Virus record (IMG/VR): IMGVR_UViG_3300021472_000007
Span: 1 to 30,613 of that record
From: a virus
DNA: 30,613 nt
Reading direction: 5' to 3' (one strand)
Part shown: positions 330 to 30,503 of the stretch, piece after piece
Position numbering within the stretch: position 1 is the first letter of the stretch
Layout of the letters: every line of letters begins with the position of its first letter
The notes under the pieces: generated by a model
Database searches by the model: none
The model's input: only the letters and a program-made list of their open reading frames with translations
What the model was told of the DNA's origin: nothing
Position numbers and translations under genes: made by a program

Positions 330-482
330 TTATGATGAATTATGGAGGTTTGGCGCCCTAAAGTCCATGTCAAAAAGGGCGACTTTATGTTTATTCATAG
401 CGTAAATGGCTGCGAGATTTGTTGACATCCGAGTTTTTCCGGTTCCGCCTTTATATGAGTGAACAGCAATTATCTTCTTCAT
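330..482 (-). pseudogene. Truncated ParA/MinD-type ATPase
   Basis: The frame begins with MKKIIAVHSYKGGTGKT, a deviant Walker A motif (KGGTGKT, residues 11-17) diagnostic of ParA/MinD/Soj partition ATPases. It continues through the DMDFRAP segment near residue 38-44 (switch I-like D). It stops after only 50 codons, where family members run to about 250 residues. Walker B and the rest are absent from all frames to the left, where the transposase-like relic lies. An insertion or deletion near position 345 may have removed the body of the gene. Its ATG overlaps the stop of the upstream HTH gene (ATGA), so the two were once a translationally coupled pair. Almost certainly non-functional as an ATPase. 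Confidence 0.8.
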
Positions 483-859: not shown

Positions 860-928
860 GTTTTTCTCTCCGGTTTTCTGTTTAACGTATCTACGATAAT
901 GTTAAGAATACTGTTTATTAAGTCTTAC

Positions 929-940
929 GATATAATTTTA
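929..940 (+). promoter_or_regulatory. TATA-like element before integrase
   Basis: GATATAATTTTA lies 43 bases before the ATG at 983. It would place a transcript start around 960-970, which argues for the 983 start over the ATG at 899. Inferred from composition and spacing only. Confidence 0.35.
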
Positions 941-982
941 CATAGTTTAAACAATAATTGGAGATTCCATATCTGCAGTAAC

Positions 983-1855
983 ATGCGAATACTTTCACTG
1001 ACCTCTCTCCGCTACATTGACAACCTACAGAAAAATAAAATTTTTAGAAGCCGATTTGAACTTGAATTTTTCGCCTTGGACGGCGCCGGCGCTCCAATAC
1101 GGCTTCGCTACGTGGAAAAACCCATTATAATCCATCGAGGAGATGTATTGAAGCTTCACAATTATCTTTGGCGTAACGGTCCTCTCCGCGACTTCCTAAT
1201 TGTGCGGCTGCCAATGAAGATTGGCCTCAGACCATTAGAGGTTGCAACGCTACAGATTGAACATATAAACTTTAGGCAGCGAACCTTCTATGTTCGCGAC
1301 AGCAAAAAATGGATCGTTTACCCTCTTCCTTTAGATCCCATAACGCTTGATTTGATCCGGGAATACGTTGAGGAAGCCGCCATAGAAAAGGGCTACCTGT
1401 TTCCGGGGCGAAAGGGAAACGCGCCTTTACAGACGCAGTCGCTTTCAAGCATGGTTAAACGGCGCGCTGAACAGGCCGGCTGTATAAATTGGCGAGGCAT
1501 GACTATGTATTTGTTGAGGCATTATTTTGCGGCGGAATGGCATTATATTCGGCATGGAAGCATAGAGGTTTTAAGGCGTATTTTAAGGCATAAAAGCCTA
1601 GCTACAACCCAGAGATATCTTGAACGCTTATTCTTTTATGAGGATATCCAAGCCGAATATGACAGGATTCAAGGCGGACCGCTTACCCATAAGCCTGTTC
1701 TTAGCCCGCTTTACCTTAAACAGTGCCAGTTCTGCATTCACGAGCCTACATGCCGGTTTCTGGAGCAGGCATGCAGCAATCCTTGGGCCGACTCATGCCG
1801 CTTTTTTGAGCCTAAACCAGAAAAGGAGAAAGCTAAAAATGGAAGTAGAAGTTGA
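983..1855 (+). CDS. int: Tyrosine recombinase / integrase
   Basis: Site-specific recombinase of the phage-integrase family, expected to insert or excise the element at an attachment site. Counting from the ATG at 983 (290 residues), the catalytic set is R83 in GLRPLEVATL, a beta-hairpin lysine near K108-K109, R179 in LLRHYFA, H203 in LRHKSLATTQ and the nucleophile Y212 in QRYLE. The first His of the usual HxxR box is replaced by Tyr (Y176). The C-terminus adds a five-cysteine tail (C248, C251, C257, C264, C272) that may bind zinc, seen in some archaeal integrases. The N-terminal DNA-binding region is short. An in-frame ATG at 899 would add 28 residues but lies upstream of the likely TATA box. 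The gene is the leftmost intact gene of the element. Confidence 0.88.
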   Translation: MRILSLTSLRYIDNLQKNKIFRSRFELEFFALDGAGAPIRLRYVEKPIIIHRGDVLKLHNYLWRNGPLRDFLIVRLPMKIGLRPLEVATLQIEHINFRQRTFYVRDSKKWIVYPLPLDPITLDLIREYVEEAAIEKGYLFPGRKGNAPLQTQSLSSMVKRRAEQAGCINWRGMTMYLLRHYFAAEWHYIRHGSIEVLRRILRHKSLATTQRYLERLFFYEDIQAEYDRIQGGPLTHKPVLSPLYLKQCQFCIHEPTCRFLEQACSNPWADSCRFFEPKPEKEKAKNGSRS

Positions 1856-3070: not shown

Positions 3071-3246
3071 AGACACTTCCAAAATGCCATGAATGCACCT
3101 TTTGCCTTGAGCTTAACCCGAAGAAGGGGCATTTACCAAGCAGAAATAAGCCAAGCTGGTTCTGCACCAAAAACAATCCGGTAATCAAGATAGACCCGAA
3201 TCAAACTGCCTGTAGGAGTTTCTATAATGGTAAATTTGAAGCGTAA
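3067..3246 (+). CDS. Small Cys-rich zinc-binding-like protein
   Basis: A 59-residue gene whose ATG overlaps the preceding TGA. Cysteines occur as KCHECTFC near the start, WFC in the middle and TACRSF near the end, a pattern compatible with one or two zinc sites. Such mini zinc proteins are frequent in early operons of archaeal viruses. It overlaps the following regulator gene by 20 bases. No specific family recognised. Confidence 0.6.
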   Translation: MKTLPKCHECTFCLELNPKKGHLPSRNKPSWFCTKNNPVIKIDPNQTACRSFYNGKFEA

Positions 3247-3592
3247 ACGTGCCTGGCATATAATTTCGCAGATGAATGGTGAATGGATGGATATTAAAGA
3301 GTTAGCGGCGCAGGCCGGCATGTCGCCTTACGAAATGAGCCGTTATCTTCGTGAAGCCAAAGCTTTGGGATTGCTTGAATCTAGGAAACGGCGAATCAAC
3401 GGGTTATATCGTAGTCTTTGGCGTTTCCGCTTGAACTCTAAGCCTCAATGTCCAAAATGCGGTCATGTCTTGGCTCCTCTCGGAAATGATGTTTTTGAAT
3501 GTGTTGTTTGCGGCGTAGGTTGGAAACCCGTTTCTCGCCCTTTCCAGGGCGAGGACGGGCCAAACCAATCAGCCTCCAAGCGAGGCGAATAA
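3227..3592 (+). CDS. Winged-helix plus zinc-ribbon regulator
   Basis: 121 residues. Residues 1-67 form a winged helix (AWHIISQMNGEWMDIKEL, then AGMSPYEMSRYLREAKALG as recognition helix, and a basic wing ESRKRRINGLYRSLWRF). Residues about 75-100 form a zinc ribbon with CPKCG and CVVCG. The combination suggests a sequence-specific DNA-binding transcription regulator of the early operon. The C-terminal 20 residues are polar and disordered. The start lies inside the previous gene with TAGGAG nearby. Confidence 0.75.
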   Translation: MVNLKRKRAWHIISQMNGEWMDIKELAAQAGMSPYEMSRYLREAKALGLLESRKRRINGLYRSLWRFRLNSKPQCPKCGHVLAPLGNDVFECVVCGVGWKPVSRPFQGEDGPNQSASKRGE

Positions 3593-6127: not shown

Positions 6128-7798
6128 ATGATTTACAGAATAGAGGAGGAAAAACCTATAAACGAGGAAAGTGAGCTTTTAGAATTCGCCAAAGACGATA
6201 AAATACTGATTCATGTCCTTAACTATTTAGATTGGCAAATAAAACGTGACTATCCAACCAAGCTAAGCTGCTTCTTCACCGGCGTCTCCGCCTTTCTTAA
6301 GGAGCCGCTTAACCTTTTCCTTAAGGGGCCTTCAAGCATAGGGAAAAGCTATAATGCAACTCGAAGCCTAAGGCCGTTTCCTTCCCACGCGATATGGAAG
6401 CTCGGCGGATTATCGCCTACGGCCCTTGTGCATCTTCACGGCGTCTTAATGAGCAAGGACGGTGAAGAAATCGATTTGGATGAGAAGCCTACACGCCGAA
6501 AAATCAAACTGCAACTGAAAGAGGAGTTGGGCCGGGATCCCAGCAAAGAAGAAATCGAGCGGAAATATCATGAAGAGTTGAAGTTGTGGCGTGAAAAATT
6601 AAGGGAAAGCTATTATCTTGTCGATTTAACCGGCAAAATACTGCTTTTCCTGGAGCCGCCTCATCCAGACACGTTTCATCGGTTGTATCCCATTCTTAGC
6701 CATGACGCTTACCGTATAAGTTACCGTTTCACCGAGAAGACCAAGCGGGGCGGATTTAAAACTACACATGTGGTTATTCAAGGATGGCCCGCAACCATCT
6801 TTCTTTCAACCGACAAAAAATATACCGAGGAGCTTTCTACAAGGAGTTTTACGGCTACGCCGGAAGAAAGCGCCGAAAAATATAGGGCCGCCAACCGGCT
6901 GACAACGAGAAAGGCGGCGCTTCCATGGCAATATGCGAAAAACGAGTTTGAAGAAAAGCTTAGGCTTTATTTGGCGAGAATGGAAATTGTCATGGCTAAC
7001 AAGGATGTTCTTGTTCCATTTTTGGGTTTGGAGGAGGCTTTTCCCGCCGAGCTTCCACGCGACATGCGAGACTATCAACATTTCATTCAGTTCGTGAAGG
7101 CCATAACGGCGCTTCATTATCTTAACCGGCCCTATTTGGAGATGGATGGGAAAGGCTACATTATAGCTTCGGCGCAGGACGTCATCGTCGCCATGAAGCT
7201 TTACTATCACATTTTTGAGACTACACGGACGGGGCTTGACAAGCAGCTTCTCGACTTTTACCATAAAATTATAAAAACGAAGGAGTTATGGTATGCGAAG
7301 GAGCTTACCGCCGAATATAACCGGCGTTTTCGGCCTCCGCGAAGCGAGAAAACCATCAAGCGTTACCTTCAAGTTCTAAGTGATGTCGGATATGTGAATG
7401 TCCGGAAGGATGATGATGACCGACGATTAAATATTTATGAGCCTCTCGTAAAAGAGGAAGAAAAAGGCTCAATTCTGCCCATTTCGGAAATGTCCACATT
7501 TTTAACGGAAATTTTGGAAAAGGGGCTTGAGGAATGGAGAAAAGAAATGGACACCCAGACCGGAAATATACCTATATTTCCGAATTACCGTGAAAGGGAA
7601 AATCCGCTTTCTTGGGAACAACTGAAACAAAAAATTTTAAGTGTAAATTGGGATGTCGTGTCCATTTTTGATTTCGAAGAAGAAAGCGTAAAAGCGGAAA
7701 ATAAACTTGAAAAAATGGACAATTCGGAAATGGGCAAAATTGAGCCTAATTCTAATTCTAAAGTTATTGGTTTATGGAAGTGGGCAAGCCATGAGTGA
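6128..7798 (+). CDS. Replicative helicase-like P-loop ATPase
   Basis: 556 residues. Walker A GPSSIGKS at 67-74, Walker B ILLFLE at 171-176, a sensor-1-like polar residue in IFLSTD (about 224-229) and a probable arginine finger in ELSTRSF (R239) give an AAA+/helicase core of the kind found in viral and plasmid replication proteins. A charged insertion of about 50 residues (110-160) separates the Walker motifs. Residues 371-440 form a winged helix (ELTAEYNRRFRPPRSEKTIKRYLQVLSDVGYV) for DNA binding. The last 115 residues are low in predicted structure, and their DNA contains clustered short motifs (see site at 7485-7731). No polymerase or primase is seen, so the virus probably recruits host replication enzymes. 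Confidence 0.75.
   Translation: MIYRIEEEKPINEESELLEFAKDDKILIHVLNYLDWQIKRDYPTKLSCFFTGVSAFLKEPLNLFLKGPSSIGKSYNATRSLRPFPSHAIWKLGGLSPTALVHLHGVLMSKDGEEIDLDEKPTRRKIKLQLKEELGRDPSKEEIERKYHEELKLWREKLRESYYLVDLTGKILLFLEPPHPDTFHRLYPILSHDAYRISYRFTEKTKRGGFKTTHVVIQGWPATIFLSTDKKYTEELSTRSFTATPEESAEKYRAANRLTTRKAALPWQYAKNEFEEKLRLYLARMEIVMANKDVLVPFLGLEEAFPAELPRDMRDYQHFIQFVKAITALHYLNRPYLEMDGKGYIIASAQDVIVAMKLYYHIFETTRTGLDKQLLDFYHKIIKTKELWYAKELTAEYNRRFRPPRSEKTIKRYLQVLSDVGYVNVRKDDDDRRLNIYEPLVKEEEKGSILPISEMSTFLTEILEKGLEEWRKEMDTQTGNIPIFPNYRERENPLSWEQLKQKILSVNWDVVSIFDFEEESVKAENKLEKMDNSEMGKIEPNSNSKVIGLWKWASHE
7485..7731. promoter_or_regulatory. Clustered TGTCCA / CGGAAAT sites and dyad
   Basis: Inside the helicase 3' end, TGTCCA or its complement occurs four times (7491, 7548, 7659, 7716) and CGGAAAT four times on the plus strand (7485, 7506, 7561, 7725). 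A perfect 10-base dyad, CGGAAATATA CC TATATTTCCG, spans 7561-7582. One segment (7545-7580) matches 25743-25778 with the same spacing. This suggests a protein-binding region ahead of the 7791-11688 gene block. What binds it is unknown. Confidence 0.45.
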
Positions 7799-23302: not shown

Positions 23303-24478
23303 ATGTCGCAGAACCCCTATGTCATCTATGGCGTTGTCAAAAAGGATGGACAGATTCAAGCCAATATAGACGTGACCATAAAAAACGTTTCAACAAATGA
23401 GCAATGCACGGTTCAGACGGACAGCGAAGGCGAATATGCAGTTGACTTGGCGGATACAACCAAGTTTCCAAGTGGATATTCAAACGGAGACCAAATAGAA
23501 GTTACAAGCCTAGAGACAACGCGAACCGCAACGGTGGACATTTCTAAGCCAGGTGAAAGAGTTGACATTTACCTTTTCATGGTTTTAGATTCTGCTGTGG
23601 GCGCCGAAACGCTTAATCGGCCCTATAGAAGTTTCGGCGTAAGCGACCAGGCAAGCGGAATAGAATCTTTCATTAGGGATAGAAGTTTCGGCGTAGGCGA
23701 TAGCGGAGTAGGCGGTGAGGTTCTGTCAAGGCCTTATAGAGGTTTAAGTTTGGCGGATGTGGCTGTTGGCGTTGAAGTTTTAAGTCGGCCTGAAAGGCAG
23801 ATTCCGCTTGTAGATTTGGCTTGTGGTCTTGAATTCATCCTTAAAACTCGAAGCTTCATAATTGTTGATTCGGGAGCCGGATTAGAACAGGTTATTCGTT
23901 CGCTTTTAATTTATATTCAGGATTCCGCCCTGGGGGCTGAAACCGTTTCAAGGCCCTTTAAAGGCTTAATTGTTTCTGACGTTGCAGTCGGCCAGGAAGC
24001 CTTAACTCGTCCTTCACGGTTCATGACGGTTATGGATTTGGCTGAGGGCCTTGAAGCTTTAATTCGAAACAAGCAAATATTAATTATTGATAGCGGCTCC
24101 GGAATTGACCTTGTCAATGTTATAACGCAGCTTTTAATCACAGTTTTTGACTCGGCCGTTGGAAACGAAATAATCCGGACCTTAAAGCAGATTCAAGTTT
24201 ATGATTCGGCTGTCGGCCTTGAAGCTGTTTCGAGGCCTTCAAGACTGATAATATTAACGGATGCAGCGCAGGGAGCTGCCCTTGTAAATCGGCTGCTCCG
24301 CCAATTCAGCTTGGCCGATAAGGCTGTAGGCCTAGAAATTATTGTCGGCGGAGGAGCAGCCATAATAATCATCAAGTCCATAACGCTTCAAGGCGAGAAG
24401 GGAGAAGTCACGCTTATAGGAGAAAAGGGAATGGTTGAGTTGGAAGGTGAAAAGGGAGAAGTGACAATTTATGGCTGA
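23303..24478 (+). CDS. Fibre-like protein with 14 tandem repeats
   Basis: 391 residues. Residues 1-92 form a carboxypeptidase-regulatory-like beta sandwich (YVIYGVVKKDGQIQANIDVT). Residues about 93-350 are about 14 repeats of 18-19 residues with core D-S-A-V-G-x-E-x-h-x-R-P-x-R, which should build a regular beta-solenoid or trimeric shaft. The last 30 residues carry three GEKGxV units, collagen-like. This architecture suits a tail or head fibre. Overlaps the next gene by 8 bases. Confidence 0.7.
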   Translation: MSQNPYVIYGVVKKDGQIQANIDVTIKNVSTNEQCTVQTDSEGEYAVDLADTTKFPSGYSNGDQIEVTSLETTRTATVDISKPGERVDIYLFMVLDSAVGAETLNRPYRSFGVSDQASGIESFIRDRSFGVGDSGVGGEVLSRPYRGLSLADVAVGVEVLSRPERQIPLVDLACGLEFILKTRSFIIVDSGAGLEQVIRSLLIYIQDSALGAETVSRPFKGLIVSDVAVGQEALTRPSRFMTVMDLAEGLEALIRNKQILIIDSGSGIDLVNVITQLLITVFDSAVGNEIIRTLKQIQVYDSAVGLEAVSRPSRLIILTDAAQGAALVNRLLRQFSLADKAVGLEIIVGGGAAIIIIKSITLQGEKGEVTLIGEKGMVELEGEKGEVTIYG

Positions 24479-25660: not shown

Positions 25661-25780
25661 ATAAAATAGGTATAAATTTGACTTGTGTCCGATATATTTT
25701 TCCTTTCCAAATTAAGCGTTTTAGCCAAAAATAAGCGTGAAAAAATGGACACTTTAACCCAAAATATACCTATTTTTCGG
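25661..25780. repeat. Imperfect inverted repeat with direct repeats
   Basis: Left arm AAAATAGGTATA (25663-25674) and GTGTCC (25685-25690) are mirrored by GGACAC (25747-25752) and TATACCTATTTT (25765-25776). Between them TAAGCGT occurs twice in the same direction (25713 and 25732). The right arm also matches 7545-7580 in the helicase gene. The whole lies in the gap before the tail tube gene. Candidate operator, origin or integrase arm-site cluster. Confidence 0.6.
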
Positions 25781-25787
25781 CGCGGAA

Positions 25788-25823
25788 GGACCAAGTGGGA
25801 TTTGAACCCACGGGTCCCGCAGT
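25788..25823 (-). tRNA. Isolated tRNA 3' end (partial, att-like)
   Basis: On the minus strand GTGGG TTCAAAT CCCAC is a perfect T arm with TTCAAAT loop, followed by TTGGTCC as the 3' acceptor strand and a T at the discriminator position. No matching 5' acceptor (GGACCAA), D arm or recognisable anticodon arm lies upstream, so this is only the 3' part of a tRNA gene. Virus genomes carry such pieces as attP where integration restores the host tRNA gene. It could alternatively be a stray relic. It stops shortly before the ribosome site of the tail tube gene. Confidence 0.5.
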
Positions 25824-30212: not shown

Positions 30213-30503
30213 TTAATAGGGAACAGGTGTTCTTGATTCCTCTTCTATGACTGGAAGCATTGTTTTTAGTTCTCTGAAATACTTTAGAACTGTTATTCCA
30301 CGCTGGGTAATCGCATAGACAACTCTCTTCTTGCCGACTGTTCTTTCCTCAACAAGATTCTGTTTTATCAAGAAGTCAAGATATTCCTTCAAAACGCTAC
30401 AGTTAACATTAGCCTTATACATAATATGCGTTAGCTTTAACGGTCCCCTTTGGGCAAGGACTCTAAGTATGTCAATGTACATTTCAAGTTTTGACCTTCG
30501 CAT
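30213..30503 (-). CDS. Archaeal winged-helix transcription regulator
   Basis: 96 residues behind GGGAGG. A classic short archaeal winged helix (PF14947-like): SKLEMYIDILRVLAQRGPLKLTHIMYKANVNCSVLKEYLDFL, recognition helix, then a wing VEERTVGKKRVVYAITQRG and a final helix LKYFREL. Likely binds DNA as a dimer. Its promoter region (30505-30595) shares an 18-of-21 base segment with the early-operon operator at 2150-2170, so it may control itself and the early operon. Opposite in direction to all structural genes. Confidence 0.82.
   Translation of the reverse strand: MRRSKLEMYIDILRVLAQRGPLKLTHIMYKANVNCSVLKEYLDFLIKQNLVEERTVGKKRVVYAITQRGITVLKYFRELKTMLPVIEEESRTPVPY

Follow-up and report, generated by a model that had tools for sequence, protein, structure and literature searches.

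A long inverted repeat at the 3′ end of a viral helicase gene, a candidate replication origin, and a related element ahead of the tail tube gene

Related elements in the helicase gene and before the tail tube gene

The window, that is, the whole stretch of DNA analysed, is an isolated virus record of 30.6 kb. Relatives of its terminase are found mainly in genomes labelled Bathyarchaeota, so this group is the probable host. Two places 18 kb apart are considered here, the 3′ end of a helicase gene and the spacer ahead of the tail tube gene. They carry the following features:

6128-7798, plus strand: replication helicase and putative origin-binding initiator, with Walker A GPSSIGKS and a C-terminal winged helix at about 380-440 of the protein
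7459-7580, minus strand: left arm of a long inverted repeat, with outer block 7459-7505 and inner site 7545-7580 (the motif of the initial annotation); from self-alignment
7581-7631, no strand assigned: spacer of about 51 nt between the arms
7632-7753, plus strand: right arm of the long inverted repeat, with inner site 7632-7667 and outer block 7707-7753; from self-alignment and folding
25661-25780, plus strand: displaced arm copy, non-coding, with two inner-type sites GGACAC-N11/13-ATACCTAT, inverted and facing outward; from arm alignment
25785-25822, minus strand: GC-rich hairpin similar to the T-arm of a tRNA, between the 25.7-kb element and the tail tube gene

Elsewhere in the window, a 50-aa ORF at 330-482 (minus strand) seems to be a shortened ParA, its Walker A motif (KGGTGKT) being a deviant form of the ParA type, a near-perfect 31-bp palindrome was seen by self-alignment at 2160-2190 just 3′ of the integrase region, and the protein encoded at 23303-24478 carries about 10 imperfect tandem repeats (DSAVG.E.LSRP...).

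The initial annotation had reported a motif of fixed spacing, AAATGGACAC-N9-AAATATACCTAT-N-TTTC (36 nt), at both places. Both copies, one at 7545-7580 inside the helicase gene and one at 25743-25778 in non-coding DNA, were confirmed on the plus strand with 0 mismatches, and these are the only two occurrences in the window. Allowing up to 3 mismatches gave no third match in the window, and the exact motif had 0 matches in viral contigs. In 100 dinucleotide shuffles no match was obtained. A PWM derived solely from the pair of inner sites in the helicase gene (7545-7580 and 7632-7667), with the 25.7-kb site left out, ranked the site at 25743 third in the window with 33 bits, compared to 13 bits for the best background site; no further copy in the window was found by this PWM. 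Because no shuffle matched and the PWM places the 25743 site this far above background, a chance origin of the pair is ruled out, and the arm-alignment score given below leads to the same result. The motif pair is the visible part of a larger structure at the 3′ end of the helicase gene.

The long inverted repeat described at 25.7 kb was found at 25663-25776. Its outermost arms (25663-25674 and 25765-25776) are complementary at 12 of 12 positions, and the stretch folds better than shuffled sequences (z -3.2, DNA parameters). Mirroring of the motif within it holds in part: GGACAC is present on the minus strand at 25685-25690, but its spacing to ATACCTAT is 11 nt and not 13. The two TAAGCGT direct repeats are likewise present, at 25713 and 25732, but they are not special, since the window contains 11 copies of this 7-mer.

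Self-alignment connects this element to the helicase gene in two segments. Positions 25740-25778 correspond to 7542-7580, and a second segment that had been missed, 25696-25754, corresponds to 7664-7724 (75% over 61 nt). Over about 117 nt, 25661-25780 can be aligned with the right arm (7632-7753) and also with the left arm (7459-7580) once this is reverse-complemented, with an arm-alignment score of 46 compared to a mean of 19 (sd 3.4) for other windows of sequence. The two places are thus homologous, and on these alignments the 25.7-kb element is a displaced copy of a single arm of the helicase-gene repeat. A shared coding peptide (MDTLTQNIPIF in a 25.7-kb ORF, MDTQTGNIPIF in the helicase) was considered as the source of the likeness and rejected; it is a by-product, because matches in inverted orientation are shared as well and synonymous shuffles destroy the helicase-gene repeat.

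The spacer ahead of the tube gene varies among relatives. In L003, whose tail tube protein is 85% identical, the same spacer has a different sequence with an inverted repeat of its own, ATAGGGTGTT/AACACCCTAT, at 1193-1210/1334-1351 (TTCGGT...ACACCCTAT). This repeat is the best of its 4.8-kb locus and barely above background (26 vs 25). L004 has no such spacer before the tube gene. In a 61%-identical relative, the spacer 5′ of the tube gene (L006:3745-3840) contains G-rich degenerate TATGGTG/GTGGTG repeats. Around other helicase homologues, in stretches mostly shorter than 20 kb, no convincing second remote copy was found.

The strong hairpin at 25785-25822 contains, on its minus strand, a T-arm that matches the tRNA form perfectly (GTGGGTTCAAATCCCAC). 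Matches of about 28 nt to it occur in 33 of the 257 genomes of the class searched, and a search of viral contigs with the tRNA-like 31-mer gave nothing. In L003 both its position and the hairpin are kept, with an eroded T-loop. It is probably separate from the 25.7-kb element and might be a tRNA-end remnant or a leader hairpin.

The inverted repeat of the helicase gene and its position in relatives

Judged by its sequence, the helicase of the window is AAA+/primase-helicase-like, carries a winged helix in its C-terminal part and resembles the pRN1 replication protein. In an alignment of 19 sequences, S69, G72 and K73 are among the invariant residues. The C-terminal part matched MarR-type winged-helix structures (E 2e-5), and this winged helix is the sole confidently recognised DNA-binding part. 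Prim-Pol matches were obtained for 2 of 19 relatives and none for the window protein; the long homologues L139 (1008 aa) and L144 (926 aa) are the likely bearers of these N-terminal matches. Single relatives gave weak matches to MCM P-loop, MCM4_WHD and DUF927. An AlphaFold model from two sequences was poor (pLDDT 39), and only one helical stretch and the winged helix (about 60-78 there) exceeded 60. Scans with single helicase sequences and a scan of genome contigs with the helicase alignment returned nothing useful. The family was detected in 31 of the 257 genomes of the Bathyarchaeota class searched. Several homologues carry Cys-rich (zinc-ribbon-like) C-terminal tails after the repeat-coded linker.

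In the window, the inverted repeat encodes the variable C-terminal tail of the helicase, its last ~100 codons. It is imperfect and measures about 285-295 bp overall (7459-7753). In the window self-alignment, the outer arms (7459-7505/7707-7753) are 47 nt long and 83% complementary. Since this outer pair and the inner pair AAATGGACAC/GTGTCCATTT have a common centre at about 7606, 7459-7753 is one imperfect two-fold symmetric element. With a score of 54 it is the strongest inverted repeat in the 30.6 kb scanned, where the next reaches 27, and the strand 7455-7757 folds with a z of -6.7 against shuffles (DNA parameters). The A+T content of the spacer between the arms is not notably high.

The position of the repeat was assessed in 22 homologues, mostly from Bathyarchaeia genomes and including the window. 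For each, the strongest inverted repeat in the gene ±600 bp was located blind to position, and the DKR of the winged helix served as anchor. In 19 of the 22, this repeat lies 20-450 bp 3′ of the anchor, often 118-184 bp. The zone averages 17% of the scanned range, which corresponds to a binomial p of ~2e-12, an optimistic value that overstates independence because the homologues are related. In the viral contig L018, whose helicase is 53% identical, an inverted repeat with 119-nt arms is located as in the window. A laxer alignment gave arms of 112-142 nt and spacers of ~2 to ~85 nt for L018, L137, L139-L142 and L144; on the window repeat it covered only the 57-nt outer part. Between distant members the arm sequences do not match, and the symmetry is retained. 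In the window and in most homologues the repeat is part of the coding sequence. Some or all of it is non-coding in L151 and L153, whose proteins stop close to the winged helix, and in L157, whose stop codon is at the edge of the repeat. In L019, a contig starting inside the helicase C-terminus, the best repeat is found there too and is weak (score 27). Repeats were marginal in L138, L145 and L146 and weak or absent in L143, L159 and L160. At the helicase 3′ end of L162 (11268-11651), about 5 repeats of 20-24 nt in alternating orientation have an iteron-like appearance.

When synonymous codons were shuffled with the protein unchanged, the repeat score of the real gene was never attained for 8 of 9 genes; for the ninth, 1 of 200 shuffles attained it (z 4-17 over the nine genes). 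Of 106 terminase genes used as a control, 7 had their strongest repeat in the 3′ zone, compared to 22 expected, and no 3′ zone scored at least 30 (0/106, vs 12/22 helicase loci). The repeat is under DNA-level rather than protein-level constraint.

A putative origin and its displaced arm copy

The helicase-gene repeat is most simply read as the viral origin because of the analogy to pRN1, in which a stem-loop lies 3′ of the replication gene. We favour, with a probability of roughly 0.6, a replication origin embedded in coding sequence at 7.45-7.75 kb, with an arm copy at 25.7 kb that is most likely bound by its initiator as well. Origin function of the repeat, binding of the helicase to the arm sites and any activity of the 25.7-kb copy are what we infer here. 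The origin, or initiator-assembly site, would sit in the last ~100 codons of the virus's own AAA+ helicase/initiator gene. The winged helix, encoded just upstream, would bind the paired sites of both arms, and two helicase rings might assemble symmetrically on the arms and melt the central spacer. The stretch at 25.66-25.78 kb, as a duplicated single arm with two sites, would bind the same initiator and could serve as a second initiation site or as an enhancer/titration site. GC skew over the window is uninformative for an origin, since nearly all genes point one way.

The initial annotation had suggested one viral protein acting at two places, perhaps to coordinate replication with the tail operon, or else an origin. 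One protein at two places and an origin remain the best fit, with the helicase-gene copy as the primary one, but the binders proposed for it do not hold. Coordination with the tail operon would be speculative, as no clear second copy turned up in the stretches covered around other homologues. Instead of the small HTH proteins (3227-3592, 30213-30503), the helicase is the likelier binder, its winged helix being encoded directly upstream of the repeat. The proposed integrase is taken up below. The lead of the shared-initiator reading over a relic or an operator at 25.7 kb is modest, because the L003 spacer repeat differs, L004 lacks the spacer and no convincing second copy was seen elsewhere.

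It is rather unlikely that the helicase-gene repeat alone is an origin, with the 25.7-kb element a piece of it that recombination copied and that is decaying without a function. The partial and diverged state of the copy (75-79%) would agree with this, as would the differing spacer of L003, its lack in L004 and the failure to find a second copy around other homologues. On the other hand, two inner-type sites are kept and the outer match is 12/12, and the spacer of L003 holds another inverted repeat, as if the structure had been kept and the sequence not.

Less probable still is that both places are operators through which the helicase or an HTH protein controls downstream genes. Inverted repeats are typical operators, and both places lie directly 5′ of genes, a PAPS-reductase-like gene at 7.8 kb and the tail tube gene; AAATATA 5′ of the latter appears to resemble an archaeal TATA box. 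However, the repeat follows the winged-helix codons in 19/22 homologues despite differing tails and downstream sequence, and symmetric arrays of ~285 bp are large for an operator.

A long hairpin acting at the RNA level, in the helicase mRNA and the tail-tube leader, seems very improbable. Strands from both places can fold, with the z values given above. However, G.U pairs are not enriched at mismatched arm positions (25 vs 31.5 expected), a result that does not favour an RNA stem. The unpaired stretches fall between conserved blocks, as in protein sites, and at 25.4-26.1 kb no Rfam family was above its cut-off.

We give hardly any credence to integrase arm or attachment sites, which had also been suggested. 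A tyrosine recombinase is encoded in the window (899-1855) and the T-arm-like hairpin adjoins the 25.7-kb element, but both sites are far from the integrase gene (6-24 kb), the repeat recurs with the helicase and not with the integrase, and the tRNA likeness covers only ~25-28 nt, the length of a T-arm, and is eroded in L003. The repeats around a core near int and the host tRNA end that mark attP of tyrosine integrases are not found here. Two insertions of a miniature transposon-like palindrome would account for a pair of related palindromes in the same genome, but a MITE is ruled out by the conserved position after the winged helix in homologues with unrelated repeat sequences, and the window holds no further copy.

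The accounts of Bathyarchaeia viruses and of archaeal tailed proviruses consulted here mention no origin or inverted repeat. Origins of the pRN1 type are already known. Within the limited open-access literature searched, no description was found of long two-fold arrays that lie in coding sequence of tailed archaeal viruses, or of an arm copied to a distant place. Tentatively, and with some doubt, the repeats might represent a widespread origin class of archaeal viruses and proviruses, a ~285-bp symmetric array of diverging sequence at the end of the initiator gene; in this virus, a second array made of a single arm and displaced into the tail operon would then act as a second initiation or enhancer site and tie replication to the late genes. 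A position-fixed DNA element tied to an initiator gene would provide a directly testable origin for this family of 31/257 genomes, would carry the principle of the pRN1 plasmid over into coding sequence and into tailed viruses, and could be a starting point for vectors that replicate in uncultured Bathyarchaeota.

Comparison with known replication origins

In the Sulfolobus plasmid pRN1, a stem-loop of ~100 bp located 3′ of the orf904 primase-helicase-winged-helix gene is the required origin (PMC4234260; PMC3869888). Across the pRN1 family, the structure of the origin is kept and its sequence is not, and the pRN1 origin still works at another location (PMC4234260; PMC3869888). Attempts to detect specific binding of ORF904 to this stem-loop gave no sign of it (PMC4234260). 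As in pRN1, the inverted repeat described here comes straight after the winged-helix codons of a gene of the AAA+/SF3-like, primase-helicase-like type, in 19/22 homologues, with structure and position conserved and sequence not. In contrast to the 21-nt stem and 58-nt loop of pRN1, the arms here are mostly 112-142 nt long, imperfect and composed of blocks resembling protein sites. The pRN1 origin is non-coding and follows the stop codon, whereas the repeat here is mostly inside coding sequence. It is also carried by a different kind of element, a tailed virus of Bathyarchaeota with a displaced arm copy, and most members of the helicase family have no recognisable Prim-Pol domain.

Archaeal chromosomal ORB origins have inverted initiator sites flanking a central region, and the putative initiator sites here are likewise inverted around a centre. 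An Orc1/Cdc6-ORB origin as such is not supported by ORB/mini-ORB repeats: even when 2 mismatches were allowed, a mini-ORB consensus had 0 matches in the window. The proteins scanned included no recognisable Orc1/Cdc6.

In phage P4, two distant cis regions, ori1 and crr, carry the same sites; these are short iterons, and the P4 primase is of the bacterial type. Sites of the same sequence at two distant regions are seen here as well, in this genome only, and their binding by the initiator is putative. The P4 alpha protein is, as proposed for the helicase described here, a winged-helix helicase initiator (PMC4234260).

In repABC plasmids, oriV lies inside repC, and silent changes there abolish replication (PMC3155836). 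This origin is A+T-rich, with no iterons and no long inverted repeat reported (PMC3155836). As in repC, the putative origin described here lies within the reading frame of its own initiator. The same arrangement is known from phage lambda, whose ori lies inside gene O, and the proteins of these systems are unrelated.
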